Shown piece after piece: positions 1-23,087 of a DNA stretch of 42,595 bases. Position numbers and translations under genes: made by a program. Each line of letters starts with the position of its first letter. The first letter of the stretch is position 1. The notes under the pieces were generated by a model. That model was not told the origin of the DNA. It did not search any database and saw nothing but the letters and a program-made list of their open reading frames with translations. The stretch comes from Deltaproteobacteria bacterium. Lineage in GTDB: Bacteria > Desulfobacterota > Desulfuromonadia > Geobacterales > Pseudopelobacteraceae. The stretch spans positions 1 to 42,595 of the forward strand of contig JAJYBH010000012.1 in assembly GCA_021779135.1 (NCBI GenBank), given 5' to 3'.

Positions 1-2071
1 AGAAGCGGATGCCGGTTACGTATCCGCTGGAATCAGAGCGGAACTTGACCCCCAACTCAACAGAACCGTCCGGACCGCCGTCAACCAGGCCAGGTACTGT
101 GGTTCCCGGCCAGATGGTAAAGTTGGTCTGCTGCGGAGTGACTGTTACCGTCATGCCGGCCGAAGGCGTCTCGATATTGCCACTGTCATCCACCGACCGG
201 CTGCGGATGGTGATTTGGCCGGATATTGCCGGAGTCCAGGTATAGCTCCAGGATTCGCGGCCGCTAGCGGGATGCCAGCTGGAACCATTATCGGTGGAAA
301 CTTCAACGGCTCCAACCACACCTCCACCGCTGTCGGATGCGGTGCCGGTTATTGTGATCGTTGAACCTGCAGGCAAAGAAAAACCTGGCGGTGGCGAGGT
401 AATCGTCGAAACAGGAGCGGTCAGGTCGTTTGATGGGGTCGCCGCTACAAGTCCGGTCTGCAACGAACCAGGTTGGACGCCCATGTCGGCAAGGATGTTG
501 ACGGTGGCCTGCTTCAAGCTCGTGTCGGTGACGGAAGGGCCGTTGTCATGAGCTGCATCCAGGCCCCAGGACCAATGTACTGTCCCGGCCGAAAAGACCA
601 AGGCCTTGCTCGGTGCGCGATAGAGGGTCATGACGTGAGTTGCTGTCCCCGGCAGGTAGATGTCGGCAGCAATGTTTATGTTGTCTCCCAAGAGCATTGC
701 TATCGTCGGAGTAGTGGTTGACGATAACTGCACGAGGCCGGCCGGCCGAAAACCGTTATCTATATCCTCATCAAACTCATAACCAACCACCCTGTCGCCA
801 AGTACCGCCTTCTGGCCCGCGGCGAGCGAGGCCGCGGCAGTGTTGCGCCAGAACCTCATCCTGCCGTTTGCCTGGGGTACTTCCAGTGAGATTCCGAGAT
901 CGTTGGGGCCGTCTGAAACCGTAAAGAGTGTACCGCTCAGGGCATTTTCGGGGCGGCCGCCATCGGCGGGCGGGCTGAATGTCGGGTTGCGCCAGGTTCC
1001 GGTCCAGATGGCAGGATCAAGGGGGTCGACAGGTGACGGGGCGTTGCTTTCATTGTAACAGACCAAGGTTCGGTAGGGGGTGCCTGAGCCGTCAATGCTG
1101 TTTTCCCAGCGCACCTTGCGGTAGATCTCATTGCCGCTGAAAAAGGCCAGGTTGACCCCCGCTGATCGTGCGGCCTCAACATTGGCCCGCTCTTGTCCGG
1201 ACCAGTATTCATCATGACCTACGGACAGGAAGGCCTTGTGTTCGAGGATCTCGGCGCCTCGTCTGTCGGTGTCGACCGAGGTGAAGTAACTGACGTTGTA
1301 CCCGTTGGCTTCCAGCCAGCGGACCATGGGATATTCGGCCTGGAAGAACCAGTTGTAGGCCCCCATGCCGCTATTCACGTCGCGAGTCAGAAATGGTCTG
1401 TTGTAGCTGGATTTTTTGGCCTTCTGATTCGGCCAGCCGTAGTCGGGGTATTCGATATAGCCGAGGCCATAGGTATTGTATGCCTGCCAGGTAGTGTCGG
1501 AGGTCTTGAAGAGAATATCGGAATTACCGGTATCGTCTCTGACGATGAAGATGATGTGGCTTGCTCCCCCGGTGTCCGTACGTACGAGTCTGGCAATGTA
1601 GACCCCGGAAACAGCGTTGGCGGGTACCACCCAGGAAGCAGATTCGGACCAGTTCCCGCAATCAGTGAGTTTGGTTGCGCTATCGCTGATACAGGCGGGC
1701 TGTGTCTGGGGGAGCGATACGGAAGGGTTGACCGTGGCCATCTTTCGTGCACCCAAACCGCCATAATAGCCGATACGGTAGATATCCACCCTGTAGCCGC
1801 TTGCCTTGGTGTCGACCTTGAAGTGGACAGTCTCGCCCTTGTTGACGCTGATATCGGTGGCGAAGCCCTGGATGCTCTGGTCACCCGCACCGATGATATC
1901 CCACTCGCTGGAAGGATTGCCCGCCTTGCAGTTCTCGGCCTCGATCGCATTTGCAGGCACACTGCACGAACTGATCGCATGTAACGGGGAAATAATTTGA
2001 ATCGTTACTATGCCCGTTACAATTGCACATGCCCGTAGTAATTTCTTATACAATTGGTTTTTCAAAATCAT
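1..2071 (-). CDS. Secreted dimethylformamidase-beta-like protein with Ig-like and DUF4082 regions (partial, 3' end outside window)
   Basis: The minus strand is open from the ATG at 2071 to the window edge (about 690 codons), so only the N-terminal part is present. The product begins with a Sec-type signal peptide (basic start, hydrophobic stretch to about residue 30). Residues of about 45 to 530 resemble the C-terminal domain of N,N-dimethylformamidase beta subunits, including a VGHDEYWSG motif near residue 287 followed by FFSGNEIYRK. An Ig-like domain follows at about 555-645. The last visible residues (ELGVKFRSDSSGYVTGIRF) look like the start of a DUF4082 domain. The visible half has no DMF-specific context, so amidase activity is not claimed; an extracellular or cell-surface role beside the polysaccharide genes is inferred. 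GGAGGG lies unusually close to the ATG at 2071; an in-frame ATG at 2080 is an alternative start. Confidence 0.82.
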   Translation of the reverse strand, partial: MILKNQLYKKLLRACAIVTGIVTIQIISPLHAISSCSVPANAIEAENCKAGNPSSEWDIIGAGDQSIQGFATDISVNKGETVHFKVDTKASGYRVDIYRIGYYGGLGARKMATVNPSVSLPQTQPACISDSATKLTDCGNWSESASWVVPANAVSGVYIARLVRTDTGGASHIIFIVRDDTGNSDILFKTSDTTWQAYNTYGLGYIEYPDYGWPNQKAKKSSYNRPFLTRDVNSGMGAYNWFFQAEYPMVRWLEANGYNVSYFTSVDTDRRGAEILEHKAFLSVGHDEYWSGQERANVEAARSAGVNLAFFSGNEIYRKVRWENSIDGSGTPYRTLVCYNESNAPSPVDPLDPAIWTGTWRNPTFSPPADGGRPENALSGTLFTVSDGPNDLGISLEVPQANGRMRFWRNTAAASLAAGQKAVLGDRVVGYEFDEDIDNGFRPAGLVQLSSTTTPTIAMLLGDNINIAADIYLPGTATHVMTLYRAPSKALVFSAGTVHWSWGLDAAHDNGPSVTDTSLKQATVNILADMGVQPGSLQTGLVAATPSNDLTAPVSTITSPPPGFSLPAGSTITITGTASDSGGGVVGAVEVSTDNGSSWHPASGRESWSYTWTPAISGQITIRSRSVDDSGNIETPSAGMTVTVTPQQTNFTIWPGTTVPGLVDGGPDGSVELGVKFRSDSSGYVTGIRF

Positions 2072-2214
2072 GCCCTCCATTATCGCTATTACTCAAATTG
2101 GCGTAGTAATTAAACCTCTACATACTTATACAAGCAATACGCATGCCTTTGAGTAACATACTGATAATGCAGTACTTTACGTTGTGGGATTACAAAGTTT
2201 ATAGATGTGTAAAG

Positions 2215-2889
2215 TTATCCGACATCAGTGGTTTGGAGGGAATATTTTCTTATCGTTTTTGCGGGGCTCCCCGCGGCGACAACATCAGCCTCGATATTGG
2301 TAATTACATTCGAGCCCAGCCCAACCAGAGTCCGATCACCTATGGAAACGTTCTCACGCATCTTTGTTCCTGAGCCGACATAACAGCTGGAACCAATCCG
2401 AACTGACCCTGAAATTGATATATTTGATCCAAAACAGGAGTAGTCACCAACGATGCTGTCGTGAGAAATAACGGTATTAGGCAGAATAATGCAGTGATTT
2501 CCTATTGTTACCCCACAGCTTATGACTGCATTTGGCATTATGACCGTGTTGTAGCCGATTTTCGCATCCGGTGATACAACCACTGATGGATGTATGATTG
2601 TAGCAAATCGTGATTCATCCAGATTCAGACTCCCGATAACCTTGTTACGTTTGGGATAGCTTGTCGGACTGCCAGGTACCGCGAGGACGAACGCATCTGG
2701 GGTTTCATTCAGGATCTCCCGCCCCCCCAGCACCTTGATTCCGCAACATTCATTACCATGCCGGGATTGATCGTCATCGATGAACCCCAGTACTTCCCAT
2801 TCGGTGTTTCTCCCATTCATCGCAAAAACGGACAACAGCGCTTCCCGCGCATTGCCACCGAATGGGAATAACAATAGTTTCTTAGGCAT
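2215..2889 (-). CDS. NeuD/PglD-like sugar O/N-acyltransferase
   Basis: This 224-residue protein has the two-part layout of the NeuD/PglD family. A small Rossmann-like N-terminal region (GGNAREAL at 11-18) is followed by a left-handed beta-helix of hexapeptide repeats from about residue 95 to 215. His143 in ISHDSIVGD sits where the family places its catalytic base. The expected reaction is acetyl-CoA-dependent acylation of an amino group on a nucleotide-linked sugar. The gene overlaps the stop of the upstream aminotransferase gene by 8 bases, and the pair probably makes and then acylates an amino sugar. The ATG at 2889 is chosen because AAGGAG lies about 8 bases upstream; the TTG at 2895 is too close to it. 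Substrate unknown. Confidence 0.85.
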   Translation of the reverse strand: MPKKLLLFPFGGNAREALLSVFAMNGRNTEWEVLGFIDDDQSRHGNECCGIKVLGGREILNETPDAFVLAVPGSPTSYPKRNKVIGSLNLDESRFATIIHPSVVVSPDAKIGYNTVIMPNAVISCGVTIGNHCIILPNTVISHDSIVGDYSCFGSNISISGSVRIGSSCYVGSGTKMRENVSIGDRTLVGLGSNVITNIEADVVAAGSPAKTIRKYSLQTTDVG

Positions 2890-4129
2890 TAACAACTCCT
2901 TTCACTACCTCGTCGACCTCTTCCTCTTTCATGCCATTGAAGAGAGGCAGGAGAATCACTGAATCTCTCGCTTGCTCAGAATGAGGCAACCAAAACTCCG
3001 CGGCGTATGCCGGTTCCTGGTGGGTATTCATGATCCCCCGGCGAGACGAAATGCCCATATCGAGCAGGTGCTGCATAAGTACATCACGACTAACCGGCGA
3101 AGTATCTCGTACCTTCACCGGGTAACTCTGCCAATTTGTTCGACACCAGGTTGTGTTTCGGGGCAACACCAACCAGGCAACATCCTTCAGCCTCTTATTG
3201 TACAGATCTGCAAGTTTTTCCCGCTCCTCCAGAAAACCCGGCAATTTTTTAAGTTGTTCAATGCCTATGGCGGCCTGGACATCGGTCATTCTGTAATTGA
3301 ATCCAGTGGTCACGTACTCTTCAAAAATCACCCGATTTGCACTGTGTCGTACCGTGTCCGGGATTGACATGCCGTGTTGCCGGAGAAGACGAAACTGCTG
3401 GTCGTACCCGGAGTTGCTTGTCGTTATCATTCCGCCGTCACCAGTGGCGACAATCTTGCGCGGATGGAATGAAAAACAGGCGATGTCGCCGTGAGGTCCG
3501 CCGATTTTTTCCCACCTGTCAGCGATATGTATTTCGCTGCCGATCGCGCAGGCGGCATCTTCTATTACGGGGAGGCCAAACTCCGCGGCAAGAGAAAGTA
3601 ATGCCTCCAGGTCGCAGGGCATGCCCATTTGATGGACCGGCATGATTGCAGCCACACGTCCTATTGATCGCGCAGTAGAAGCGGCTCCGCCTTCCACAAT
3701 GTTTCGTAATGGGGATTCCCCAACAGCAAGCCGTGCAACATCCCGATAATAGAGCCCCCCCTCGCGCTTCTCGCATTGCTCGTACAGACAATGCCTGAGG
3801 CTTTCCTGAGACATGTTGTAGGAACGAGGATCGATATCGACAAAGAGCGGTTCAGCGAAACAGTACCGTACTGCATTTGCCGTCGCGATAAACGAGTGAC
3901 TCATCGTAATTACGACATCTCCGGGTTTCACACCTACCGCCAGGAGGGCAAGGTGCAGGGCTGTCGTGCAGCTTGAAACCGCGCAGGCGTGTTTTGAGCC
4001 GACATAGGATGCAAAGTCATCTTCAAATTGCTTGACCTTGGGCCCCTGCGTAAGCCAGCCGGAAAGAATCACCTCTTGTGCTGCCGCGGCTTCCTCTTTT
4101 CCAAGGCACGGCTTAGCAATTGGAATCAT
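2882..4129 (-). CDS. DegT/DnrJ/EryC1/StrS-family sugar aminotransferase with an unusual insertion
   Basis: This is a PLP-dependent sugar aminotransferase of 415 residues. Recognisable family blocks are GWLTQGPKVKQFE near residue 24, SCTTALHLAL near 53, VIEDAACAIGSE at 188-199 (Asp191 would contact the PLP nitrogen) and CFSFHPRKIVATGDGG with Lys225 as the likely Schiff-base lysine. The family normally runs from the FVDID strand to the VHQMG strand with a short link. Here about 40 extra residues (roughly 113-157) lie between them, which explains the length above the usual 370-390. The ATG at 4129 has GGAGGAG 8 bases upstream; a longer reading from 4186 lacks such support. The gene overlaps galU by 17 bases and feeds the NeuD-like acyltransferase. 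Sugar substrate unknown. Confidence 0.9.
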   Translation of the reverse strand: MIPIAKPCLGKEEAAAAQEVILSGWLTQGPKVKQFEDDFASYVGSKHACAVSSCTTALHLALLAVGVKPGDVVITMSHSFIATANAVRYCFAEPLFVDIDPRSYNMSQESLRHCLYEQCEKREGGLYYRDVARLAVGESPLRNIVEGGAASTARSIGRVAAIMPVHQMGMPCDLEALLSLAAEFGLPVIEDAACAIGSEIHIADRWEKIGGPHGDIACFSFHPRKIVATGDGGMITTSNSGYDQQFRLLRQHGMSIPDTVRHSANRVIFEEYVTTGFNYRMTDVQAAIGIEQLKKLPGFLEEREKLADLYNKRLKDVAWLVLPRNTTWCRTNWQSYPVKVRDTSPVSRDVLMQHLLDMGISSRRGIMNTHQEPAYAAEFWLPHSEQARDSVILLPLFNGMKEEEVDEVVKGVVNA

Positions 4130-5000
4130 TGTCACACTCCTCCAGGCGTTGTCTGAGAAATGACCGAAATCTGCCGTTAAACTCATTCCGTTTCAAGGCC
4201 ATGTCCACCGTTGCTTTCAAAAAGCCGAACTTGTCGCCACAGTCGTGACGGATACCTTCGAACTGGCAGCCGTACACGGCTTTTTCCGATAACAGCGTGA
4301 GGATGGCGTCGGTCAGCTGTATTTCCCCCCCCTTGCCCGGTTCCAGGCTTTCCAGGATCGGGAAGATGTCCGGGGTCAGAACGTACCTGCCGATGATCGC
4401 CAGGTCCGAAGGGGCCTCTTCCCGCTTCGGTTTTTCCACCATATCGATCACTTCGAAAATTTGATCGGATATCCGGTTGGCCTTGACACATCCATAGGCA
4501 GAGATGTTCTCCATTGGGACCTGTTCCAGGGCCAGCACGGTCCCCTGGTATTTGTAGTGGACGTCGAGAAGCTGGGCCAGGCATGGCCGCTTGGCATCGA
4601 TGATGTCGTCACCGAGGAGGACTGCAAACGGCTCCTCACCGACGAACTCCCGGGCGCAGAGGATGGCGTGGCCGAGACCCAGCGCCTGCTGCTGGCGGAC
4701 GTAAAATATCTTGACCATTTCCGCGATCTCCCGCACCTGGGAAAGTTCGGCGTCCTTACCTTTGTCGTAGAGCAGCGCCTCCAATTCGAAGGCGATGTCG
4801 AAATAATCCTCGATAGACCGTTTGCCTCGACCGGTAACGAAGAGGATCTGCTCGATCCCCGCGGCAACCGCCTCTTCCACGACATAGTGTACGAGAGGCT
4901 TGTCGATGAGGGGAAGCATCTCCTTGGGTGAAGCCTTGGTGGCCGGCAGGAATCTGGTGCCGAGTCCGGCAACCGGGAAAACTGCTTTTTTAACCTGCAT
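4113..5000 (-). CDS. galU: UTP-glucose-1-phosphate uridylyltransferase
   Basis: This 295-residue protein has the full GalU pattern. FPVAGLGTRFLPATKASPK starts at residue 8 and binds the nucleotide. Further hallmarks are LIDKPLVHYVVEEA, GLGHAILCA, VLLGDDII, the IIGRYVLTP segment and GGEIQLTDAI. It makes UDP-glucose from UTP and glucose-1-phosphate in the cytoplasm and so supplies activated sugar for the surrounding exopolysaccharide genes. The ATG at 5000 is selected because AAGGAG lies 8 bases before it; the in-frame GTG at 5024 has no comparable site. It overlaps the following aminotransferase gene by 17 bases, which suggests one transcript. Nothing looks truncated. It is close to the typical family length of about 290-300 residues. 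Confidence 0.96.
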   Translation of the reverse strand: MQVKKAVFPVAGLGTRFLPATKASPKEMLPLIDKPLVHYVVEEAVAAGIEQILFVTGRGKRSIEDYFDIAFELEALLYDKGKDAELSQVREIAEMVKIFYVRQQQALGLGHAILCAREFVGEEPFAVLLGDDIIDAKRPCLAQLLDVHYKYQGTVLALEQVPMENISAYGCVKANRISDQIFEVIDMVEKPKREEAPSDLAIIGRYVLTPDIFPILESLEPGKGGEIQLTDAILTLLSEKAVYGCQFEGIRHDCGDKFGFLKATVDMALKRNEFNGRFRSFLRQRLEECDNDSNC

Positions 5001-5057
5001 CAGTTTTTCTCCTTGATAATTCACAGAATCAGGTCAACTCGTGCGAATTCTCCGCCT

Positions 5058-6035
5058 TCAGGCAACGGGACCATTGCCGGCAATGATTCCCTTCCGCCAG
5101 GCGATAAGACGTCTCAAACCCTCTTCCACACTTACCTTTGCCTCGAAACCCAGCAAGTTCCTGGCTTTTGTCGTGCTTGCCAGCCTCCGGGGGACCGGAT
5201 TCACGGTGCGTTCCGGTAAAAACTCCGGTTCCAGTTTAGATCCCGTAACCTTGAGCACCGCCCTGAGCAGTCCCAGCAGGCTCGTCTCGCTGCCGCTGGC
5301 GACGTTGAACACCTCATCAGTTACATCGGACTCCATGGCCAGGATGTTTGCATCAGTAATGTCATCAATATTTATGAGATCCATGGTCTGCGAGCCGTCG
5401 CCGAAAATCAGCGGCGTCTGTCCGCTATCGATCCGGTCAAGCCAGCGCACGAGGACTTCGGTGTACTTACCATCGATATCCATGCGAGGTCCGTACACAT
5501 TGAAGTAGCGCAGGGCAACATAGCGAAGGCCGTACATTTCCGCAAATGACCGTACCATGCCTTCGCCCGCAACCTTTGCGGCCCCATAATAGGTGCGATT
5601 GTTGTACGGGTGATGGCTTTCATCGGTAGGGAATGAATCGGCAAGTCCATAAACTGACGCTGAAGAGGCATATAATAGTTTCCCCACCTTCTTCTCAACC
5701 GCCGCCTGGAGCACGTTATGAGTACCCGTCAGCATCACTTCCATGGCATCGCGGGGGTTGTCTGCACAAGCCGTGATTCTGATGGCCGCCATATGGAATA
5801 TCCCATCCACGCCGCTGGCAAGATTCATGAGCAGTTCCAGGTCGCGTATATCCCCCTTTACGAGACGTACCCTCGAATCCTTCAGGATTCCATCGATATT
5901 GTGCATGCTTCCGCGTACAAAATTATCGAGCAGTATTATCTCGTCAGCTCCGCCCGCCAGCAGCCGGTCGGCTATGTGTGAACCCATCAAACCGGCGCCA
6001 CCGGTCACCAGAAATCTGTTCCCCTCAATCTTCAT
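5058..6035 (-). CDS. NAD-dependent sugar-nucleotide epimerase/dehydratase (extended SDR)
   Basis: This is an extended short-chain dehydrogenase/reductase of 325 residues. The NAD-binding glycine motif TGGAGLMGSH is at 11-20, where the canonical form is TGGAGFIGSH. A catalytic Ser lies in YASSASVYG near 125, and the YxxxK pair is Tyr150/Lys154 in TYYGAAK. RYFNVYGPRM near 190 is typical of UDP-sugar 4-epimerases and related dehydratases. Both the expected fold and the placement between galU and the fused acetyl/aminotransferase indicate a UDP-sugar substrate, either UDP-glucose/galactose or an acetamido derivative; the sequence alone does not decide. The start at 6035 has GGAG 7 bases upstream. 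A gap of 39 bases separates it from the upstream gene. Confidence 0.88.
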   Translation of the reverse strand: MKIEGNRFLVTGGAGLMGSHIADRLLAGGADEIILLDNFVRGSMHNIDGILKDSRVRLVKGDIRDLELLMNLASGVDGIFHMAAIRITACADNPRDAMEVMLTGTHNVLQAAVEKKVGKLLYASSASVYGLADSFPTDESHHPYNNRTYYGAAKVAGEGMVRSFAEMYGLRYVALRYFNVYGPRMDIDGKYTEVLVRWLDRIDSGQTPLIFGDGSQTMDLINIDDITDANILAMESDVTDEVFNVASGSETSLLGLLRAVLKVTGSKLEPEFLPERTVNPVPRRLASTTKARNLLGFEAKVSVEEGLRRLIAWRKGIIAGNGPVA

Positions 6036-6074: not shown

Positions 6075-7685
6075 TCAAAGAGCCCTATAAACCTCACGCA
6101 CGGCCAGACAAACCCTGTCCTGCTGGGCTGAAGTCAGCTCAGCAAACATTGGCAGGGAAAGCACTTCGTTTGAAGCCGCTTCGGTGTGCGGGAAATCACC
6201 CTCCTTGTAACCAAGGTCTGCATATGCCGGCTGGAGATGCACGGGAATCGGGTAATGTATGCCGGTGTTAACACCTTTCGCTGTGAGAGCTTTCTGGAAT
6301 GCATCGCGCTGGGCCACACGGATTGCGTAAATATGGTAAACATGACGGTTGGCTTGCATCTCGGACGGAGTCTTTACTCCGCTATCCGCTAAAAGCACAT
6401 CGTATCGGGAGGCATGACTCCGTCGGGCATTGGTCCATTTTTCCAAGTGCCGCAACTTGACGCGCAATATTGCTCCCTGCATGCCTTCCATGCGGTAGTT
6501 ATACCCCTTTAACGTATGGATGTATTTACTCTCCGCTCCCCAATCCCTCAGCATGCGTATGGTGTGGGCATGTTTCTGGCTGTTGGTGACCACCATTCCA
6601 CCCTCGCCATAGGCACCCAGGTTCTTGCCCGGGTAGAAACTGAAGCAGCCCAGGTCCGCGATGCTGCCAACCCGACGACCCTTGTATTCAGCGCCATGTG
6701 CCTGGCAGGCGTCTTCGATAACGGTGAGATTATGACGGCGGGCAATTTCCATGATTGTATCCATGTCTGCTGATTGACCATGGATGTGCACGGGTAAGAT
6801 GACCTTTGTCCGGGGTGTGATGGCTGCCTCGATCGCACTGGTGTCCATGGTCAGGGAGTTTGGTTCAATATCAACGAAGACCGGCTTGGCCCCGGAATAT
6901 ACAATTGCTGCTACCGTAGCTACAAAGGTATAGGAAACGGTGATGACCTCATCACCCGGACCAACTCCGGCTGCCAATAACGCCAGATGGAGGGCGCTGG
7001 TCCCGGTATTGACGGCTATGCCGTTGCCGGCATTCTGATAGGCGGCGAACTCACGCTCGAAGGCAGCAACCTCTTCACCCAGAACAAACGAACAGCTTTC
7101 CAGAATCTTGTTGACTGCCGGTTGGATCTCGACCTTGATCGAATGATACTGTGCCTTCAGGTCCAGAAACGGAACAGGTTGCAAACTGTCATCCTTATCA
7201 GACTCAACATCCTCCATGGTACGTATGAAGCGTGCCGGAATCCCCGCTACAACGGAATTTGCAGGCACATCCTTCGTGACTACGCTTCCCGATCCAACGA
7301 TGGCGTTTTCGCCTATCGTAACACCACACAGAATCGTGGAACTCGTGCCGATGGAGGCGCCTTTTTTTACCAGGGTAGGGACACAGACCCAATCCGCTTC
7401 AGTCTGTGGGGCTCCGTTTGCGGTAGCGCGCGGGTACTTGTCATTGATAAAAGAGACATTATGCCCGACAAATACGTCATCTTCTATCGTCACGCCTTCA
7501 CAGATAAAAGTGTGGCTGGAGACCTTTACGTTCTTGCCGATCTTGGCATTTTTCTGGATTTCTACAAATGCGCCGACCCGTGAGTTATCGCCAATTTCGC
7601 AGCCGTAGAGGTTAATGAACTCTGAAAGTCTGATGTTCTCGCCCAGCGTTACGTTATTGATGCTCTGCTTGGAGCTGTCGCTCAT
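6075..7685 (-). CDS. Bifunctional sugar N-acetyltransferase-aminotransferase fusion (WbpD-like + WbpE-like)
   Basis: This 536-residue protein joins two enzymes usually encoded separately. Residues 10-155 form a left-handed beta-helix acetyltransferase: hexapeptide repeats, a probable catalytic His75 in FVGHNVSFIND, and a GIPARFIR end typical of WbpD/WlbB. After a charged linker at about 156-170, residues 171-536 form a complete DegT-family aminotransferase with GTSALHLAL, the PLP Asp in VIEDACQAHG (about 325) and the Schiff-base Lys354 in FSFYPGKNLGAYGEGG. In the WbpB-WbpE-WbpD pathway these activities aminate a 3-keto-UDP-GlcNAc uronate and then acetylate it, and the WbpB-like oxidoreductase gene lies immediately upstream with an ATGA overlap. 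The reading frame is continuous, so the fusion is not an artefact of a missing stop in this sequence. The exact substrate is inferred. Confidence 0.9.
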   Translation of the reverse strand: MSDSSKQSINNVTLGENIRLSEFINLYGCEIGDNSRVGAFVEIQKNAKIGKNVKVSSHTFICEGVTIEDDVFVGHNVSFINDKYPRATANGAPQTEADWVCVPTLVKKGASIGTSSTILCGVTIGENAIVGSGSVVTKDVPANSVVAGIPARFIRTMEDVESDKDDSLQPVPFLDLKAQYHSIKVEIQPAVNKILESCSFVLGEEVAAFEREFAAYQNAGNGIAVNTGTSALHLALLAAGVGPGDEVITVSYTFVATVAAIVYSGAKPVFVDIEPNSLTMDTSAIEAAITPRTKVILPVHIHGQSADMDTIMEIARRHNLTVIEDACQAHGAEYKGRRVGSIADLGCFSFYPGKNLGAYGEGGMVVTNSQKHAHTIRMLRDWGAESKYIHTLKGYNYRMEGMQGAILRVKLRHLEKWTNARRSHASRYDVLLADSGVKTPSEMQANRHVYHIYAIRVAQRDAFQKALTAKGVNTGIHYPIPVHLQPAYADLGYKEGDFPHTEAASNEVLSLPMFAELTSAQQDRVCLAVREVYRAL

Positions 7686-8686
7686 AGTCTGATCTCCTTC
7701 CCGCGTTGTTTGATGGATTTTTCCGAGGCTTCCAGTATTTTCACGACATTAAGGCCGCTGATTCCATCGGTGATAGGGCGTCGTCCTGTTTGTACGCACC
7801 CGACAAATTCGCCTACCATGACGCGCAATGCCTCGGTAACGTTCAGCCGGGGTGCCCACATGTCACCAAGACGATAGGAGACAAGAACATCGTGGATCCC
7901 TTCGGTGGTCGAAACGTCTACCCCGCGGTCGTAGATCTTGATTTTTTCACTGACCTCCATGTCATCATAATGGATGGTCTTTTTACTCCCACCGACGAGC
8001 ATGGTGCGGACCTTGACCGGTGAGAGCCAGTTGTTGTGAAAGTGCGCAATCAAACCGCTGTCGAAGTACACCGTGAGATATGCCACGTTCTCATGTCCGT
8101 TACCTACGTGACAGGCGCCGGTTGCGCACACGCTGACCGGTTTTTCCTTGACCAGATGATCCATGATGGCAAGATCGTGCGGCGCAAGGTCCCACAACAC
8201 ATTTACGTCCCGTTGAATCAAACCGAGATTGATGCGTACCGAATCAAAATAATAGAGATCACCCAGATCCCCACGATCTATGATCTCCTTCATTTTACTG
8301 ACTGCTCCCGTATAGATGAAGGTGTGGTCAACCATGAAGGTAAGTTTGCGTTGGTCAGCCAGTTCCACCAGTTTCTCAGCCTCCGCTACCGAGGCGGTAG
8401 CAGGTTTCTCCAGCAATACGTGTTTTCCATGCTCGAATGCCTTGCGCGCTAACTCATAGTGACTAGAAACCGGTGTCGAGATTACAACCGCATCAATTAA
8501 TGGATTGTTCAATATATCTTCGTACCTGGTTGTAGTCTCAATCGATGGAAATTTGGATTTGACCTGTGCGAGACGTTCCGGGTTCATGTCACAACAAGAA
8601 ATTGCACGGGCATCACCCAACTCTTGAATGTTGCGGACAAGATTCGGGCCCCAATAACCGTATCCGACTACAGCGATGTTAATCAT
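7682..8686 (-). CDS. Gfo/Idh/MocA-family sugar-nucleotide oxidoreductase (WbpB-like)
   Basis: This 334-residue protein has an N-terminal Rossmann fold (INIAVVGYGYWGPN from residue 2) and the family signature HVLLEKPAT near residue 92, whose Lys is catalytic. A C-terminal alpha/beta substrate domain follows. In the UDP-acetamido uronate pathway such enzymes oxidise C3 before transamination. The next gene, overlapping by ATGA, encodes both later steps on one chain, which supports that assignment. The ATG at 8686 has a strong GGAGGT about 10 bases upstream; the earlier in-frame start at 8725 is less supported. No WbpA-like UDP-GlcNAc 6-dehydrogenase was found in the window, so the substrate may come from a gene elsewhere. 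General myo-inositol-type dehydrogenase activity cannot be ruled out. Confidence 0.87.
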   Translation of the reverse strand: MINIAVVGYGYWGPNLVRNIQELGDARAISCCDMNPERLAQVKSKFPSIETTTRYEDILNNPLIDAVVISTPVSSHYELARKAFEHGKHVLLEKPATASVAEAEKLVELADQRKLTFMVDHTFIYTGAVSKMKEIIDRGDLGDLYYFDSVRINLGLIQRDVNVLWDLAPHDLAIMDHLVKEKPVSVCATGACHVGNGHENVAYLTVYFDSGLIAHFHNNWLSPVKVRTMLVGGSKKTIHYDDMEVSEKIKIYDRGVDVSTTEGIHDVLVSYRLGDMWAPRLNVTEALRVMVGEFVGCVQTGRRPITDGISGLNVVKILEASEKSIKQRGKEIRL

Positions 8687-8823
8687 GCCTTCAGACCTCC
8701 TTGGGATGTAATTATCAAATTGCATTTAATGCCCGCTAAATTAAAATGCCTTAATAGGCCTTCGGAATGTCAATGCGGATGGGAACCGATTTCACCTGCT
8801 GGCCTCTACAGCCTTGATGGAAT

Positions 8824-9738
8824 TCAGTGCTTCTGCTTGACGCTATCGTGATCAAAAAAATCTTCAAAAAGGCTTCTCATGGTAGAGAATTCAAAATCGG
8901 ACAACAGGTTTCGAAACCGGTTTTCAGTCCTGGAGAGGTTTACATAATGACGAAAACGTGTCTTAAACCCTATGTCTGTCATTCTGGGCTGGCCTGGATC
9001 TATTTCCCAGGGATGCAGATAAAACACAAAGGGGCTGGAGTCTATCCGGTTGATCCGTTGCAGGCCCCATCTTGTAAGGCAATAAGGGAACAGCCGGAAA
9101 TAGCCCCCGCCTGCTATTGGAATATTGGTTCCAGCCAGGTGCAGGGTGGTGATCGGAATTTCCATCATCCGGGAACTTTCGGCAGGTTCGGAAGAGGGGG
9201 CATTTTCAGGTGCCCAACTTCCGTTTGCATCCCTGATGACATTGAATGGGAAGCGTGGCCAGTCCGGAATGCCGTAATAATCGTGGCGTACCGGAAACAC
9301 ACTGGAATCATAGCGGTAACCGGCTTCAAGTAATTCATCAAATGCCCAAAGCGAACCCATCGAGATAGAATAGCTCGGGGCTCGATACCCGAGGACGGCT
9401 TGGCCGATTAGATCTTCAAGCAGCGACTTGCCGCGGCGGATATCATCCCGAAATTCTTGCCGTGACTGTCCGGAAACCCGCCGGTGTGCATAACCGTGGC
9501 AGGCGATTTCATGCCCGGCGATCTGAATATCCTTAATCAAGGCGGGACAGCGTTCCGCAACCCATCCCAGAACAAAGAAGGTTGCAAAGACTCCTGATTG
9601 TTGGAGTATGTCCAGCAACCTTCTGGTGTTGTCCACGACCCTCACAGGATAAGCAGACCAATCTTCACGTTTCACATGCTGTTCGAAAGCGGAGACCTGG
9701 AAGTAATCCTCGACATCGATGGTTAAGGCATTGATCAT
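8824..9738 (-). CDS. XrtA-system polysaccharide deacetylase (DUF3473 type)
   Basis: This is a NodB-fold deacetylase of about 304 residues, matching the subfamily found in exosortase A exopolysaccharide loci. The start ALTIDVEDYFQV carries the metal-site acidic residues. CHGYAHRR near residue 80 gives the His-x3-His metal pair, and GYRAPSYSIS near 118 is the family Arg motif. The C-terminal part with FYLHPWEIDPGQPR is the DUF3473-like end. It probably removes N-acetyl groups from the secreted polymer or its lipid-linked precursor. The start at 9738 (MINALTIDVEDYF) fits the family; a longer reading from a TTG at 9780 has no visible ribosome site, and the site for 9738 is also weak. It lies between the outer-membrane gene and the sugar-nucleotide block. 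Confidence 0.88.
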   Translation of the reverse strand: MINALTIDVEDYFQVSAFEQHVKREDWSAYPVRVVDNTRRLLDILQQSGVFATFFVLGWVAERCPALIKDIQIAGHEIACHGYAHRRVSGQSRQEFRDDIRRGKSLLEDLIGQAVLGYRAPSYSISMGSLWAFDELLEAGYRYDSSVFPVRHDYYGIPDWPRFPFNVIRDANGSWAPENAPSSEPAESSRMMEIPITTLHLAGTNIPIAGGGYFRLFPYCLTRWGLQRINRIDSSPFVFYLHPWEIDPGQPRMTDIGFKTRFRHYVNLSRTENRFRNLLSDFEFSTMRSLFEDFFDHDSVKQKH

Positions 9739-9904
9739 AAAGTCAGTAAACAAGCGTACAGAGCGTACGGAGACAATCAATCGAAAAGCGTCCGGGGCAG
9801 GGGGGTGTACAGATGAGTTGAGCCTGTAATAGATATTTGTTCATCTCCCTTGTCCCCCGCCAGCTTTGCTTGATCACCAGCTTACCTGCCGTGTCAATCT
9901 GCCT

Positions 9905-11215
9905 CTAAAAAACCTTCTTCACTTCCACCATCGCCCGGTTGATCTCCTTGGCGCCGGCGGACATGTTGTCCAGATCGTACACATTTGTGACGTAGATGTA
10001 GGTCAGGCCGAGCGTGATGTCGTGGTTGAAGGCATAATTCAATCCGCCGGTGCCGGTGAAGCGATAGGGATAGTCGGCCGCGGTCTTCTGGCTGAATCGT
10101 TCAGCGGTCGCCTCCAGATTCGCGGTAAGCTTCGGCAGGACCTCGTAGCGCCCGGAGGCGCCAAAGGCCAGCCTGTTCCAGTCTTGCGCGCCGGTTTGCG
10201 TAATGACGTATTCTGTGTAGGAGCTGAACAGGCCGATCGCTCCACGCTTGAGTTCCCTGTCGAGTTTGCCGCTGTAGCTGGTCTCCTTGGTGGAGTTGGA
10301 TAACGGGTCCTCTGCAAACTGGACCCTGGTCTCAAGCGTGAGCACGAAGATGCTCAGGTCATGGGTGATGCCGGCGCTCCAGAACAGATTGCTCACGTTG
10401 TTGCCGCTGGAAAAAATTTGCCAACTGTTGCCAAGGCTGCCGAAGAGAAAGGATTTGTCGGCATAGTTGTATCTGAATCCTCCGGAGAGGTCATGCCTGT
10501 CGAAGTTAACGGATGTTGTTCTGGTCTTACTAAAGGCATAATCCGCCTGCATGCTGAACTTTGAGGTCAGCTCATGATTCAGGTTTGCAAAGGCGACATG
10601 TTCCTGCTTTTCGATACCCTCACCCCAGTAACGGGTATCGATAAAGCGGTATCCGGTCTTGAGTGTGGTCTTCTCTCCAGGATGCCAGAGCAGGTAGGGG
10701 GAGATAGTGGCTATGTTCTGGTCGGTCTGGTTGAGAAACAGGCTTTCCTGGGTCGCATCGCGGGCAATATTTAACGAGACACGTTGGTAGCTGTCCATCA
10801 GGTCAAGGTTCAGGCGCTCGTCCACCAGTTTCAGCAAACCCTTGACATTGCCGGTGTGGGTTATTTCGTCAGAGTGGCTCCCCCGGGCATAATTGCGATA
10901 GTCAAAAACATACCCGAGATCCCAGTCCCAGAGAGGGGCCTTGTAAATGTATGAAAGACCGGGTTGTACCCGGGTAATATACTCGGGTCTTTTGTTCTGG
11001 ACGCTCTCGAATACGTTGTCGGTGTATTCCTCGCTGATCGCCAGGGAAGGTTTCAGGATGTAATCCGAAGCCTGAACCTGAGTAACCCCCAACAACACAC
11101 ACACTGAAGCGAAACAAAGCGGCCAGCGTTTGAGAACGGCAAAAAACGGTGCGAGCGGCCCTTCGTGGGGGACCAGGCAATCTGATCCGCATGTTACTCC
11201 ATGAATGAAGTGCAT
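9905..11215 (-). CDS. Outer-membrane beta-barrel protein of XrtA/PEP-CTERM exopolysaccharide loci
   Basis: This 436-residue protein has a long N-terminal leader ending in a hydrophobic segment (about 30-47) and a likely cleavage after VQAS. The mature part opens with LKPSLAISEEYTDNVF, a pattern typical of the PEP-CTERM-associated outer-membrane family often called TIGR03016. Alternating aromatic beta-strands continue to the end, and the final residue is Phe, as in most BAM-inserted barrels. It probably assists polymer export across the outer membrane or anchors the export apparatus. Its start codon overlaps the stop of the ATPase gene by one base (TAATG), and GGAGG lies about 11 bases upstream. 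The signal region is longer than usual; an internal start is possible but not evident. Confidence 0.83.
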   Translation of the reverse strand: MHFIHGVTCGSDCLVPHEGPLAPFFAVLKRWPLCFASVCVLLGVTQVQASDYILKPSLAISEEYTDNVFESVQNKRPEYITRVQPGLSYIYKAPLWDWDLGYVFDYRNYARGSHSDEITHTGNVKGLLKLVDERLNLDLMDSYQRVSLNIARDATQESLFLNQTDQNIATISPYLLWHPGEKTTLKTGYRFIDTRYWGEGIEKQEHVAFANLNHELTSKFSMQADYAFSKTRTTSVNFDRHDLSGGFRYNYADKSFLFGSLGNSWQIFSSGNNVSNLFWSAGITHDLSIFVLTLETRVQFAEDPLSNSTKETSYSGKLDRELKRGAIGLFSSYTEYVITQTGAQDWNRLAFGASGRYEVLPKLTANLEATAERFSQKTAADYPYRFTGTGGLNYAFNHDITLGLTYIYVTNVYDLDNMSAGAKEINRAMVEVKKVF

Positions 11216-12387
11216 TATTTGAATATCCTCCGTATCAGGTCCTGTTTCGGCAGGTTGCCCTTCTCAGAAAGATCCTGAGTCTCTGGCACACGCTTAGACT
11301 GCCCTTCGATTTTCTTGTTTATCCTGGCTACGTCGGCATTGGTTTTGTTGAGTTGCTCCGTAAATGTATTCTGGAACTGCTCCAGACGCTCATTGAGTTT
11401 CTTGAGTGGCGACTGAACAGCAGACAGGGTCTCTTTTTCATGAGTAGACAGGCGTTGATTCAGTTTATTGAAAAGTTCCTCGATTCTGCTTTCAGTCCAG
11501 TGCGAATGAGCCTGGATGGACTCCGGGGATGAGTTGGTGTTGCTTGCGGCTATATCCGGTTGTTCCTGTACCCAGTAGTGATGTCCATAATCAAGGTCAC
11601 CGATGATTTCGCGGATCATCTCCTCGTCAATGTCCCGCACTTCTTCCGCAAAGGCCGCCAGGAGTATAAAGTCACAGATGATGTTTATTAATCTGGGAAT
11701 GCCGCTACAGAAGCTAAATATTAGGTCGAGGGACGGTGGTTCGAGATGGATGGCATCCCGATTACCGGCGACCTGCAATCGATGGAAAATATATTCCTCC
11801 ATTTCCTGACGGTTGAGCGGTTGCAGATTGCACTGGAAGTTTATCCGCTGGCGCAACTGGCGCAGTTCCGGCCTGGCAAGCAGGGTGCGCAACTCCGGTT
11901 GCCCCACCAGGATGATCTGCAGCAGTTTGGAATCGGATGTTTCCAGGTTTGATAACATGCGGATCTCTTCCAGGGTCTCGGGTGGCAGATTTTGCGCTTC
12001 GTCAATGATCAGCAGCGGCTGGTTTCCCTTGCTGTACTGATCGACAAGAAAGTGATTGAGATCCCGCAGCAGCTCGATCTTGTCCTTACCCTGAACCGGC
12101 AGATCAAAATCGTCATTGATCATGGACAGCAGTTGAACAGAGTTCACGTTGGTATTGAAAACCTTGGCGAGCACGACCCGTTCGAGATTTTTGTTGATCA
12201 ATTCCCTGATGATGGTGGTCTTGCCGGAACCGACCTCTCCTGTCAACAGCACAAAGCCGACCCGTTCACGGATGCCGTAATCCAGATAGGTTATAGCCTT
12301 TTTGTGGGTTTTGCTGAGAAACATGAAGTCCGGATTAGGGATCAAGTCGAACGGTTTGCATGTCAGATTGAAGAACGAACAATACAT
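11215..12387 (-). CDS. XrtA-associated ExeA-like AAA ATPase
   Basis: This cytoplasmic AAA+ ATPase of 390 residues is related to ExeA/GspA. It opens with the family start FFNLTCKPFDLIPNPDF, then Walker A GEVGSGKTT at about 50-58 and Walker B LLIIDEAQNLPPE near 128. A sensor-like VGQPEL segment and the RINF(Q)C block follow. The last 110 residues are polar with coiled-coil character (KKLNERLEQFQNTF). This matches the ATPase of exosortase A polysaccharide loci (TIGR03015-type), whose precise role is not established in the family; coupling to polymer export or assembly is the usual guess. GGAG lies 8 bases before the ATG at 12387. The gene sits 35 bases downstream of the tyrosine autokinase gene. 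Confidence 0.9.
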   Translation of the reverse strand: MYCSFFNLTCKPFDLIPNPDFMFLSKTHKKAITYLDYGIRERVGFVLLTGEVGSGKTTIIRELINKNLERVVLAKVFNTNVNSVQLLSMINDDFDLPVQGKDKIELLRDLNHFLVDQYSKGNQPLLIIDEAQNLPPETLEEIRMLSNLETSDSKLLQIILVGQPELRTLLARPELRQLRQRINFQCNLQPLNRQEMEEYIFHRLQVAGNRDAIHLEPPSLDLIFSFCSGIPRLINIICDFILLAAFAEEVRDIDEEMIREIIGDLDYGHHYWVQEQPDIAASNTNSSPESIQAHSHWTESRIEELFNKLNQRLSTHEKETLSAVQSPLKKLNERLEQFQNTFTEQLNKTNADVARINKKIEGQSKRVPETQDLSEKGNLPKQDLIRRIFK

Positions 12388-12422
12388 GGCTTAGGCTCCG
12401 GCTGAAAATGTCACGTGTCTGT

Positions 12423-13241
12423 TCATCTTGTGTAGTATTTATTGTAATACGAGTTTTCCGTGGTGACCTCGGTTGAATCGTTGAGTACCACGCCCAGAAT
12501 TGGACAGCCCTTTAAAATTTCCTGGGCCTCCGCTACATTTTCCCGCGCAGTAACACCCTCGTGAATTACCAGGACAATACCATCAACCATCTGCGCCAGA
12601 GAGCGTGTCTCGGCAAAAGGCAGAAGCGGCGGAGTATCAATAATCACATACCGGTCCTTATAGCGGTGCTTGATCTCCGCCATCATCTCCTGCATTCTAT
12701 TCGAGGCAAACAGCTCCAGCGGTTTTGCTACCTCACGTCCGGCAGATATCAGCGAGAGTTTGCTGATATCGGTCTTGACGATAGCCTCACCTATGTCGAT
12801 GTTATCCTGCAGACAGTCAGACAAACCTATTCCCTGCTCGAACCCCAGGTAACCGTGTATGCTGGGTCGCCGCAGGTCAGCGTCAATGAGCAGTACTGTC
12901 AGATCGTATTCCTGCGCCATGGATATGGCCAGATTGGCGGCGGTCAGGCTTTTGCCTTCCCCCGCCATCGCGCTGGTTACCATCAGCATGTTACGGAACC
13001 TGTCTTCGTTTGTCAGCCGTACCAGGGAGCTTTTCAGTTTGCGGTACTGTTCGGAAACAGGCGAATGCGGTTCTGTAAGGGCTTTCAGCAAAAGGTTGCC
13101 GGCATCGATGGTAATCGTCCTGGCGTTACTGTTTCCAGACTGCAACCGTGGTATGTTTTGCGGTTTTCTCGCAATGGAGACAGGTTGGACGCTGTTACGT
13201 AATTGTGACGCCTTTTCCAGGGCTTTTTCAATTCTGCTCAT
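12423..13241 (-). CDS. XrtA-associated tyrosine autokinase (CpsD/CapB-like BY-kinase)
   Basis: This 272-residue protein is a bacterial tyrosine kinase of the polysaccharide co-polymerase system. Walker A is TSAMAGEGKS at about 89-98, Walker A' is LLIDADLRRP at about 117-126, and the Walker B-like region is VIIDTPPLL. The C-terminus is a tyrosine cluster (SYYNKYYTR), the usual autophosphorylation tail. It should act on the cytoplasmic face together with the chain-length protein encoded 30 bases upstream, cycling phosphorylation to control polymer length. The separate kinase and co-polymerase layout resembles CpsC/CpsD rather than the fused Wzc. AAGGTG precedes the ATG at 13241 at a usual distance. 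Full length. Confidence 0.92.
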   Translation of the reverse strand: MSRIEKALEKASQLRNSVQPVSIARKPQNIPRLQSGNSNARTITIDAGNLLLKALTEPHSPVSEQYRKLKSSLVRLTNEDRFRNMLMVTSAMAGEGKSLTAANLAISMAQEYDLTVLLIDADLRRPSIHGYLGFEQGIGLSDCLQDNIDIGEAIVKTDISKLSLISAGREVAKPLELFASNRMQEMMAEIKHRYKDRYVIIDTPPLLPFAETRSLAQMVDGIVLVIHEGVTARENVAEAQEILKGCPILGVVLNDSTEVTTENSYYNKYYTR

Positions 13242-13271
13242 GTAGGCACCTTGTGCTGAATGTCGATTTTT

Positions 13272-14729
13272 CTAGTTGGAGAATTTACTGATGACCTTTG
13301 ATAACAAGTTGATTCCGGCAGCCTCTGAGGCAAGCACGGCCAGGATCAGTGAAAAATAAGCGCCGGCGGCAAAGTATAATCTAAGATCACGTTTACCTTG
13401 CAGAGCACTCTGCCGCGGGTCTTCAATCCTGGGGATGACAGCCAGAACCGGCAATCCCAGTTGTTTAGCCATATCCAGATCTTTTATCGAATTATCCATC
13501 TGGTCCTTCAATACAACCAGCAAAAGGCCGCCACCGATCCCGGCCAGTATGCCCATCAGAATGATTTTTACCCTATTCGGGCTGACCGGCTTGAACGGCA
13601 GCACGGCCGGATCCACCACCCTGAAAACAGTCGATTTATCCTGAACCTCCATCTGTTTGGAAACCTCGGACTGGCCTTGACGAGCCAGCATGGCTTCGTA
13701 AAGGGCTTTCTGCGAGTTTTTCTCGCGTTCCAGACTCTCCAGGGTCGCCTTTGCCGCGGGGATACTATGCAGCAGACTGCGATTCCTGGCGATGTTGTTG
13801 CCCAGATTTACCTCGGCCTGGCGAAGTGCCCGCAGCTCCGAGGCAAGCTTGGCATATTCCGGAGAATCGATTGGTCTGGCTGTGCCGCGGCCGCTCTTGA
13901 GCTGTTCATTCAGGGCACGGATATCCTCTTTAATCCGTTGGATCTCCGGATAGCTGTCAGTGTATTGCAGCTGCAACTCCTGCAGTCTTTTCTGCAGCGC
14001 GGGCATATTCGACTGGGCAGAACTGACTTTGCTCAAACCGGCCATGGTCGTTTCCAGTTGGGCTTCTCGTATCTTCAGATCATCCAGTCGTAGCTGCGAA
14101 TCGTTGATATCCTTGAGCAACAGCGAAGGGTCCATGTTGGCGATTGAACCTGAGCCACTTTTAAAGGCATTGGCCGCATCTTCCGATTTGTCCAGTTTTT
14201 CCTTGAAAGTGGCCAATTGTTCGGAGACAAACTGTGTGGCTCCATAAGATTCTTCCCGCTTACTGGAGGTGTTATCATTTATGTAGCGCCGTACCAGAGC
14301 ATTTACGTAGTCGCGGGCAATCTTGGGATCCTTATCCTGAAACGAGATTACGAAAAGCCCCTCCCGGTCCTTGATCCTGATTTGGGTATTGTCCTGAATT
14401 GCTCTAATCTGATTTTCGAGTTCCGCCGCACCGTTACGTTTAATATCCAGCTCATCAAGTACATTGGTTATCAGCGTTCGGCTATTGAGCGCATATGACA
14501 GAACCTTGATCTTGTCTTCAGTGGAAGGGGAGAAGGTCAGTCCCTTCAATAATTCAGAAATAATACTTTTTTCAATGAACACGGTGCTGCTGGCTTCATA
14601 TTTGTTTGGCAGCAGGTAACTTGCTATGGTTATGGCGGTCATGATGGCCAGTGCCGACACGATACACAGCGTTTTATTCTTCCTGGCCAGTTTCAGATAT
14701 TTCTTGTACTCGAATTCCCTGGATGCCAT
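13272..14729 (-). CDS. Wzz-type chain-length determinant / polysaccharide co-polymerase
   Basis: This 485-residue inner-membrane protein has a transmembrane segment near residues 20-40 and a long periplasmic region with extended coiled coils (about 170-360). A proline-containing VLPFKPVSPNRVK motif precedes the second transmembrane helix (about 390-410), as in Wzz/GumC proteins. A third hydrophobic segment lies near the C-terminus (about 445-470). It belongs with the XrtA-type chain-length family (TIGR03007-like). It should set polymer length and pass polymer to the export protein encoded just upstream. The ATG at 14729 is chosen because GTGGAG lies 7 bases before it; the GTG at 14741 is itself part of that site. 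No ATPase domain is fused; the autokinase is the next gene. Confidence 0.9.
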   Translation of the reverse strand: MASREFEYKKYLKLARKNKTLCIVSALAIMTAITIASYLLPNKYEASSTVFIEKSIISELLKGLTFSPSTEDKIKVLSYALNSRTLITNVLDELDIKRNGAAELENQIRAIQDNTQIRIKDREGLFVISFQDKDPKIARDYVNALVRRYINDNTSSKREESYGATQFVSEQLATFKEKLDKSEDAANAFKSGSGSIANMDPSLLLKDINDSQLRLDDLKIREAQLETTMAGLSKVSSAQSNMPALQKRLQELQLQYTDSYPEIQRIKEDIRALNEQLKSGRGTARPIDSPEYAKLASELRALRQAEVNLGNNIARNRSLLHSIPAAKATLESLEREKNSQKALYEAMLARQGQSEVSKQMEVQDKSTVFRVVDPAVLPFKPVSPNRVKIILMGILAGIGGGLLLVVLKDQMDNSIKDLDMAKQLGLPVLAVIPRIEDPRQSALQGKRDLRLYFAAGAYFSLILAVLASEAAGINLLSKVISKFSN

Positions 14730-14772
14730 CTGTTTCTCCACACTGGTTTGGTTCTGGGTATGTTTGAACTAA

Positions 14773-15579: not shown

Positions 15580-15614
15580 GGATGTTGCTCCTTGTGCGCA
15601 GAAGCGGTGACGTG

Positions 15615-17009: not shown

Positions 17010-17019
17010 GTCCCGTCCT

Positions 17020-21763: not shown

Positions 21764-21767
21764 GCTT

Positions 21768-22859: not shown

Positions 22860-23086
22860 TGCATATCCCCGGGGGCAAAGACCTCTTTCATCAGGCGAAT
22901 GGTCTCCTCGGCGTAAGCCTCATCCAGTCTCGAAATGGCAAATCCGGCATGCACGATGACATAGTCGCCGACGGCAACCTCTTCACCCAGCAGCATGACG
23001 CTGGCCTCTTTCCGGACTCCGTCCACCTCGGCAACGATGTTGTCGCCATCCCTGCTCAGGATCTTCATCGGGACACCTAGGCACAT
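22856..23086 (-). CDS. hypC: Hydrogenase assembly chaperone HypC
   Basis: This 76-residue protein starts MCLGVPMKIL; the N-terminal Cys2 is essential in HypC/HybG for binding the Fe(CN)2CO moiety and the hydrogenase large-subunit precursor. The remainder (DNIVAEVDG, VGDYVIVHAGFAI) is the family's OB-like barrel, ending in a helix (DEAYAEETIRLMKEVF). It partners HypD, whose gene overlaps by ATGA. A longer open frame to 23221 exists but lies inside hypF; the family start is at 23086, one base after the hypF stop. The usual length is 70-95 residues. Confidence 0.96.
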   Translation of the reverse strand: MCLGVPMKILSRDGDNIVAEVDGVRKEASVMLLGEEVAVGDYVIVHAGFAISRLDEAYAEETIRLMKEVFAPGDMQ

Positions 23087-23087
23087 A

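Follow-up and report, generated by a model that had tools for sequence, protein, structure and literature searches.

The large subunit of the N,N-dimethylformamidase (DMFase) of Paracoccus holds an iron through Tyr399, Tyr440 and Glu521, and the variants Y440A, E521A and H519A are all inactive (PMC7686228). Among exopolysaccharides (EPS), GAG and Pel are made cationic by de-N-acetylation (PMC9030451), a modification that has been tied to aggregation and surface attachment and for which the named enzymes belong to CE4 in bacteria and CE18 in fungi (PMC7229062). Agd3 removes acetyl groups from a fungal exopolysaccharide, and its bacterial homologues are encoded within or close to EPS operons (PMC7229062); the NDST1 deacetylase is homologous to Agd3 (PMC10864358). 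Here we analyse a gene beside an EPS locus in a Deltaproteobacteria bacterium of the Pseudopelobacteraceae (assembly GCA_021779135.1), situated on the minus strand at the very start of contig C4 (JAJYBH010000012.1); the 42,595-nucleotide stretch of this contig that was analysed is referred to as the window. The gene encodes a DMFase-like protein followed by an immunoglobulin-like (Ig) domain and the beginning of a DUF4082 domain. We propose, with about even confidence, that its product is secreted and removes N-acyl groups, in an iron-dependent manner, from the exopolysaccharide of the cell itself, with the Ig and DUF4082 domains providing the targeting.

The gene is a single stop-free frame of 693 codons, running from an ATG at position 2080 to base 2; the window begins at the first base of the contig and the assembly has no sequence to the left of base 1. 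The ATG at 2071, which the initial annotation had taken as the start, is preceded by GGAGGGC and agrees with the N-termini of relatives better than the ATG at 2080. Coordinates and Pfam matches (Table 1) agree with the earlier description of a signal peptide, a DMFase-like region, an Ig domain and a DUF4082 start on one frame that leaves the window. The N-terminus, read by eye from the translation, is Sec-like, with KK..R, a hydrophobic stretch and ..SPLHA, and the PF20254 stretch (aa 97-512) covers catalytic domain III, which is ThuA/GATase-like, together with part of the Ig-like domain I. The DUF4082 match covers model positions 3-34 of 143 with E = 0.0012 and 19.2 bits, below the cut-off of 28.4, a low score that we attribute to truncation of the domain by the contig end, since DUF4082 in relatives runs full length from the same place. 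No second DUF4082 stretch that might represent the missing 3′ part was found elsewhere in this genome. Near-identical repeats were considered as the cause of the contig break and found no support, the two tandem copies in a related genome (G009) being just 66-77% alike. A lipoprotein was also considered, as ISSC at aa 36-39 loosely resembles a lipobox; relatives have FSSC, LSSC and RSSC, and the idea was dropped.

In order to place the protein among its relatives, 57 genomes (numbered G), the window's own included, were compared, and a homologue set of 76 loci (numbered L) was collected from named genomes of about 11 phyla. The initial annotation had suggested structure prediction; an AlphaFold model of aa 37-548 (mean predicted local distance difference test score, pLDDT, 89.5) matched N-acetyl-(R)-beta-phenylalanine acylase best among solved structures (8huy; Z 33.2, root-mean-square deviation (rmsd) 3.0, 422 residues aligned), followed by DMFase (6lvb/6lvd/6lve) at Z 31.6-32.3, with the next row at Z 12.9. 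A 48-row alignment was then built from the window protein, one G009 copy and 46 sequences chosen from the 76 loci, in which 71 of the 512 columns are invariant. The equivalents of Tyr399, His519, Glu521 and Asn547 are found in all 48 rows, across about 11 phyla, while Tyr440 aligns to the Tyr of an S-L-Y motif in a column that is Tyr in 44 of the 48; in the remaining four rows, from the Geobacter clade, Tyr is the next residue (IEY, Tyr211 in the window protein), within a stretch modelled at low confidence. Pentraxin domain II is absent, as only 431 residues of the 512-aa model align within residues 2-756 of 6lvb, which leaves no place for a domain of 264 residues. Judged on the model, the window protein thus carries a predicted PF20254 enzyme-like domain, and is not a dimethylformamidase.

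From domain identity, predicted fold, the conserved site and the genomic linkage seen in part of the family, we infer export, a metal, an activity, its substrate, binding by DUF4082 and an effect on biofilm, along the following lines. The Sec signal peptide would export the modular protein, whose PF20254 head, made of DMFase domains I and III and free of the pentraxin insert, would hold a mononuclear iron via two Tyr and one Glu and, with the catalytic His, would hydrolyse N-acyl amide bonds. The neighbouring genes are predicted to provide sugars with N-acyl groups, and the Ig and DUF4082 tail may keep the head attached to the polysaccharide that these genes make. Outside the cell, the head would then strip N-acetyl or N-formyl groups from that exopolysaccharide, which would become locally cationic, as with other secreted de-N-acetylases.

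The polysaccharide genes lie from 19665 to 2, all on the minus strand. Seven XrtA-associated families, TIGR03006 among them, score above their NCBIfam cut-offs in the window. Two genes of N-acyltransferase type lie in the cluster, so that the polymer is expected to bear N-acyl groups. The acyltransferase part of the fusion gene is nearest to WlbB-like and QdtC-type enzymes, with WxcM-like and other acetyltransferases also among the matches; 3-N- and 4-N-acylation is assigned to enzymes of these types. The initial annotation had placed the DMFase-like gene at the end of a polysaccharide locus. The contig does end there, but G009 has more same-strand genes past its DMFase-like gene, including an XrtA-type FemAB gene (TIGR03019) and, by eye, a flippase and glycosyltransferases; a FemAB-type gene, 77% alike, also lies downstream in a second relative, G053.

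To examine how general this arrangement is, we defined a cassette of five window gene types (GFO/IDH, fusion, epimerase, DegT and hexapeptide) and scored it in the other loci by blastp at no less than 40% identity. At least three of the five types were present in 21 of the 76 loci. When only loci of at least 18 kb were considered this held for 18 of 50, as against 0 of 20 random 20-kb stretches (Fisher p 0.0016, relatedness ignored). A cassette gene lies within 3 kb in 23 of the 76 loci, in 16 of these within 200 bases, and the close-linked loci span Cyanobacteria, Acidobacteria, Methylobacter, Burkholderiales, Verrucomicrobia and others. When a hand-picked cassette label was placed on 14 rows of a tree of the 48 domains (L059, L076 and L118, which have fewer than three types, among them), it required 11 changes, at least seven of them forced by well-supported branches, and its clustering did not exceed that of shuffled labels (132 of 500 shuffles gave a count as low). 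The cassette has therefore not been inherited with the gene as one block, though short contigs may hide it in some unlabelled rows.

DUF4082 stretches and the fusion gene also tend to occur together in the compared genomes. The window protein was matched at E ≤ 0.001 in 19 of the 57 genomes; outside its own genome, matches over most of the length were found only in G009 (two tandem copies) and G053, and the other 16 genomes matched solely within aa 506-693, the Ig/DUF4082 part. A full-length fusion gene at 78% identity or more is present in six of the 57 genomes (G000, G001, G009, G010, G017 and G053; next best 61%), and strong DUF4082 matches (E < 1e-50) in eight, plus the cut copy in G000. 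All six fusion genomes are among these nine (p 2e-6, relatedness ignored), and in each the nearest DUF4082 stretch is no more than 8 kb from the fusion gene. Another six genomes, with no such fusion, show weaker DUF4082 matches above the cut-off.

Further hints come from the heads that DUF4082 proteins carry. G001 belongs to the same genus as the window. Its aminotransferase and hexapeptide genes, which share 64% and 68% identity with the window's, are followed by genes for DUF4082 proteins: two, of 1927 and 1124 aa, contain an Agd3-like module described below, and a third begins with a head of about 450 aa that appears clan-A-glycosidase-like (NEP and TEI motifs, read by eye); its L115 relative has a Glyco_hydro_30C match below the cut-off. 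Other DUF4082 proteins show a sub-threshold polysaccharide-lyase-14 match or, by eye, PHP-like and (alpha/alpha)6-like heads, and some hold nothing but Ig, FN3 and DUF4082 domains. That DUF4082 so often stands beside predicted carbohydrate-acting heads is the best hint that it may target polysaccharide. By the same token, these companions and slot-mates suggest that the DMFase-like protein is carbohydrate-linked in the sense of acting on carbohydrate.

Three side observations concern these heads. In Nitrospira, a single gene related to the clan-A-glycosidase-like head on a DUF4082 protein (L038:12047-16858, L115:7932-9368) lies near a DMFase-like gene. An N-terminal domain of about 500 aa with no Pfam match, possibly an (alpha/alpha)6 barrel (L040:1880-5032 in G010, L119:3947-5659, L048:3780-5669), is common to a DUF4082 protein and to single genes near DMFase-like genes of Burkholderiales. 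Finally, L041 and L042 (G004 and G034) contain a lone DUF4082 protein near exosortase-like and UDP-glucose-dehydrogenase-like genes, with no amino-sugar cassette; the L041 protein has a sub-threshold polysaccharide-lyase-14 match and the L042 protein is 67% alike.

A recurrent companion is a module of 585 residues, seen in the G053 protein between the Ig domains after the first DUF4082 and the last Ig/DUF4082, which has no Pfam or NCBIfam match above cut-off (DUF4350 reaches 18.1 of the 30.4 bits required). A stand-alone relative (L036:4892-6904) likewise had no match in Pfam or NCBIfam, and none of its PDB sequence matches was better than E 0.73. The module occurs in 38 of the 76 loci, of which 29 have it within the DMFase-head protein and nine in a neighbouring gene alone, some copies being partial. 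In its model (34 rows, pLDDT 90.8), a GATase-like domain is followed by a NodB-like barrel and a beta-sandwich. Taken singly, domains of the module match glycosidase and ThuA-like structures equally well or better (Z up to 20.9), and Agd3 (6nwz) has the most aligned residues among the rows shown (467, next 267; Z 17.3, rmsd 10.0), over module residues 1-583, with NDST1 at Foldseek rank 2 over 579 columns. Residues D268, H270, H328, C333, H368, C369, R416 and H468 are invariant. Candidates for the CE18 Asp pair, the CM3 Arg and the CM4 His, matched by order only, are D268 (34/34) and D269 (32/34), R416 and H468 (both 34/34). For the HxxxH metal motif (CM2), His328 is kept and a His at +4 is found in none of the 34 rows; we therefore call the module Agd3-like and do not file it under CE18. 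It is, at 38 places in all (L089:9962-11716, L089:5093-6826 and 36 more), a candidate new deacetylase family. The window's own genome yielded no copy; the module may sit in the missing part or be absent there.

These observations allow a wider and more tentative proposal, which we consider possible: that PF20254-DUF4082 fusions are widespread, unrecognised extracellular iron(III)-dependent polysaccharide de-N-acylases in about 11 phyla, standing beside, or often fused to, an Agd3/NDST1-like deacetylase with an altered metal motif, and that an amino-sugar polymer, made in several phyla by one co-located cassette, may lose different N-acyl groups to the two heads, which would differ in chemistry.

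Table 1. Features of the window discussed in the text, all on the minus strand
Feature	Position	Strand	Remark
Predicted secreted DMFase-like protein, open reading frame	2..2080	-	3′ end cut by contig end
Predicted Sec signal peptide, aa 4-35, cut after LHA	1976..2071	-	start 2071 or 2080; read by eye from translation
DMFA2_C (PF20254), aa 97-512	545..1792	-	E = 2e-98, 330.7 bits against cut-off 27 (Pfam)
Bacterial Ig domain Big_7, aa 556-625	206..415	-	E = 1e-7 (Pfam)
DUF4082 start, first 32 residues, aa 662-693	2..97	-	Pfam; full-length in relatives
Tyr201, equivalent of iron ligand Tyr399	1478..1480	-	profile alignment; 48/48 rows
Tyr211, likely equivalent of iron ligand Tyr440	1448..1450	-	one-residue alignment shift in Geobacter clade
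His289-Asp290-Glu291, equivalents of catalytic His519 and iron ligand Glu521	1208..1216	-	48/48 rows
Asn317, equivalent of active-site Asn547	1130..1132	-	48/48 rows
Hexapeptide sugar N-acyltransferase	2215..2895	-	best PDB match VioB; directly upstream of DMFase-like gene
DegT/ArnB/perosamine-type sugar aminotransferase	2882..4186	-	
Nucleotidyltransferase (PF00483)	4113..5024	-	listed frame overlaps next gene
NAD-dependent sugar epimerase/dehydratase	5058..6035	-	
Hexapeptide acyltransferase + QdtB/WbpE-type aminotransferase fusion	6075..7685	-	
GFO/IDH/MocA dehydrogenase	7682..8725	-	
XrtA-system polysaccharide deacetylase (TIGR03006)	8824..9780	-	
XrtA-type EPS machinery	11215..19665	-	TIGR03015 ATPase, TIGR03018 tyrosine kinase, TIGR03007 chain length, TIGR03027 export
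XrtA-type EPS machinery, further	11215..19665	-	TIGR03013 glycosyltransferase, TIGR02917 PrsT

The XrtA-type machinery at 8824-19665 stands in a genome where the exosortase was not found, either with TIGR02602 or with an exosortase A protein query, empty answers of this kind being weak; an assembly gap or a sortase-less system would account for this. Beyond the EPS locus, a gene at 20864-22051 encodes a protein joining protoglobin and PsiE domains, and the hydrogenase maturation genes hypD, hypC and hypF (21768-25490) adjoin the locus.

The initial annotation had further suggested that the protein may be a PEP-CTERM substrate, and had named the lack of any sorting signal, together with a lack of co-expression with the polysaccharide genes, as what would speak against its view. 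The XrtA type of the locus and a C-terminus that lies off the contig leave room for a signal beyond the contig end, but the complete relatives point the other way. The G009 and G053 proteins are 983, 2538 and 1838 aa long; the two longer ones finish in DUF4082 (...NYWVDVVFQQ) and gave no NCBIfam PEP-CTERM match, and the 983-aa protein, judged by its printed end alone, finishes in an Ig-like domain. Of the 76 loci, 60 are closed by the open reading frame call (a few, L104, L108, L112 and L113, as broken or short frames), and none of these 60 C-termini passes a PEP-CTERM or LPXTG pattern test, while 16 have a DUF4082-type end. In G053 a PEP-CTERM protein is encoded on the same contig, as is an exosortase A (TIGR03109, 224.8 bits against a cut-off of 208), so that absence of the signal there is not due to a missing system. 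In the window's own assembly the failure to find an exosortase, weak as such empty answers are, also counts against the idea. The window protein is thus probably not a PEP-CTERM substrate, an indirect conclusion drawn from relatives, and exosortase sorting by a signal beyond the contig end is very improbable. As for co-expression, a consensus scan listed no minus-strand promoter-like or terminator-like site in 2081-2214. The sorting-signal idea is not supported; the wider contrast with a metabolic amidase subunit is, the DMFase-like protein being apparently secreted and tied to a polysaccharide locus.

The same annotation had read the DMFase fold as a surface or carbohydrate-linked module. If this is taken to mean a non-catalytic binding or structural part of a surface protein, it fits the Ig/DUF4082 tails, Ig domains being frequent in surface proteins, and it has a precedent in the GATase-like domain of Agd3, which is a carbohydrate-binding module (PMC7229062). 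A decayed scaffold would, however, not need the four site residues that are invariant in all 48 rows over about 11 phyla, and this retention of metal-ligand and catalytic positions argues for an enzyme; we consider a non-catalytic module unlikely, and keep from the earlier wording the link to carbohydrate, as something acted upon. An enzyme of this fold could also be directed at another amide of the exopolysaccharide, for example by deamidating uronamides or cutting peptide or amino-acid substituents. GFO/IDH dehydrogenases and aminotransferases can belong to uronic-acid sugar pathways, and the FemAB-type genes downstream in G009 and G053 would suit such substituents. This variant is quite unlikely in our estimation, because the two N-acyltransferase-type genes of the cluster, one of them directly upstream, make N-acyl groups the nearer target. 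The exopolysaccharide might not be the substrate at all, if the protein were a secreted nutritional amidase that scavenges N-acyl amino acids, peptides or amides of foreign origin and its place in an EPS locus were due to chance. The characterised PF20254 enzymes do cut small amides, and 30 of the 31 loci from Actinobacteria, Bacteroidetes and Chloroflexi have no cassette gene; elsewhere, the recurring link to one sugar cassette, scattered over the tree with at least seven forced changes, and the link to deacetylase-like and glycosidase-like heads argue against scavenging, which we regard as distinctly unlikely.

Several points weigh against a de-N-acylase of the cell's own exopolysaccharide. 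The PF20254 relatives characterised so far have small-molecule substrates, and the DMFase large subunit is inactive by itself (PMC7686228); DMFase also has a small subunit of about 15 kDa. Site conservation, as read from the alignment, is a mark of constraint, not of chemistry, the Tyr440 equivalent is placed in a weakly modelled loop, and the remainder of the window protein is unassembled. The control stretches for the cassette linkage were few, came from the window's own order only and were not EPS loci. The 31 loci of Actinobacteria (11), Bacteroidetes (16) and Chloroflexi (4), with taxa taken from record titles and several on short contigs, include only one with even a single cassette type. 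Around 14 chosen cassette-less loci, 12 of them from those three groups, the 86 neighbours tallied (of 116) form a mixed Pfam set, with glycosyltransferase families of at most three members each among 25 of the 106 families. Formyl_trans_N occurs in two of these 86 neighbours, and a formyl-transferase motif search in the open reading frames of the 76 loci gave no match, with a pattern that missed at least those two proteins.

If the proposed de-N-acylase activity is correct, it would add a second, unrelated chemistry, built on iron, two tyrosines and one glutamate, to polysaccharide de-N-acetylation, would give a role to DUF4082, a domain with no known function, and would suggest natural substrates on which the dimethylformamidase fold evolved. 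Acetate or formate set free from the polysaccharide of the strain itself would offer a direct assay. Judged by titles and the beginnings of abstracts, with thin coverage of subscription journals, we found no literature tying the DMFase fold or PF20254 to polysaccharide. None was found on DUF4082 with dimethylformamidase, nor on an N-deacetylase and exopolysaccharide in Geobacter; the one paper found to mention DUF4082 does so for a predicted secreted protein. Domain combinations of the PF20254/DUF4082 type may already be recorded in databases.

Compared with known systems, the window protein resembles the DMFase large subunit in domains I and III, which align over 419-431 residues, and in its equivalents of Tyr399, Glu521, His519, Asn547 and probably Tyr440; it differs in the lack of pentraxin domain II (512 aa modelled, against 775), in an identity of just 17-18%, and in its signal peptide, Ig and DUF4082 fusion and EPS locus. 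N-acetyl-(R)-beta-phenylalanine acylase (8huy, 8i59, 8i5a), the closest solved structure, is by name a de-N-acetylating enzyme, but at 22% identity and with a chain of about 770 aa, whereas the window head is part of a larger Ig/DUF4082 protein; none of the first 10 of 248 literature matches dealt with this acylase. Agd3, founder of CE18 and CBM87, shares with the relatives' module the three-part order of GATase-like domain, NodB-like barrel and beta-sandwich, yet the module lacks HxxxH in 34 of 34 rows, superposes as a whole at an rmsd of 10 Å and is not present in the window. The window locus itself is of the XrtA/PEP-CTERM EPS type by its XrtA-associated families, and departs from that type in a DMFase-like protein whose relatives carry no PEP-CTERM signal.

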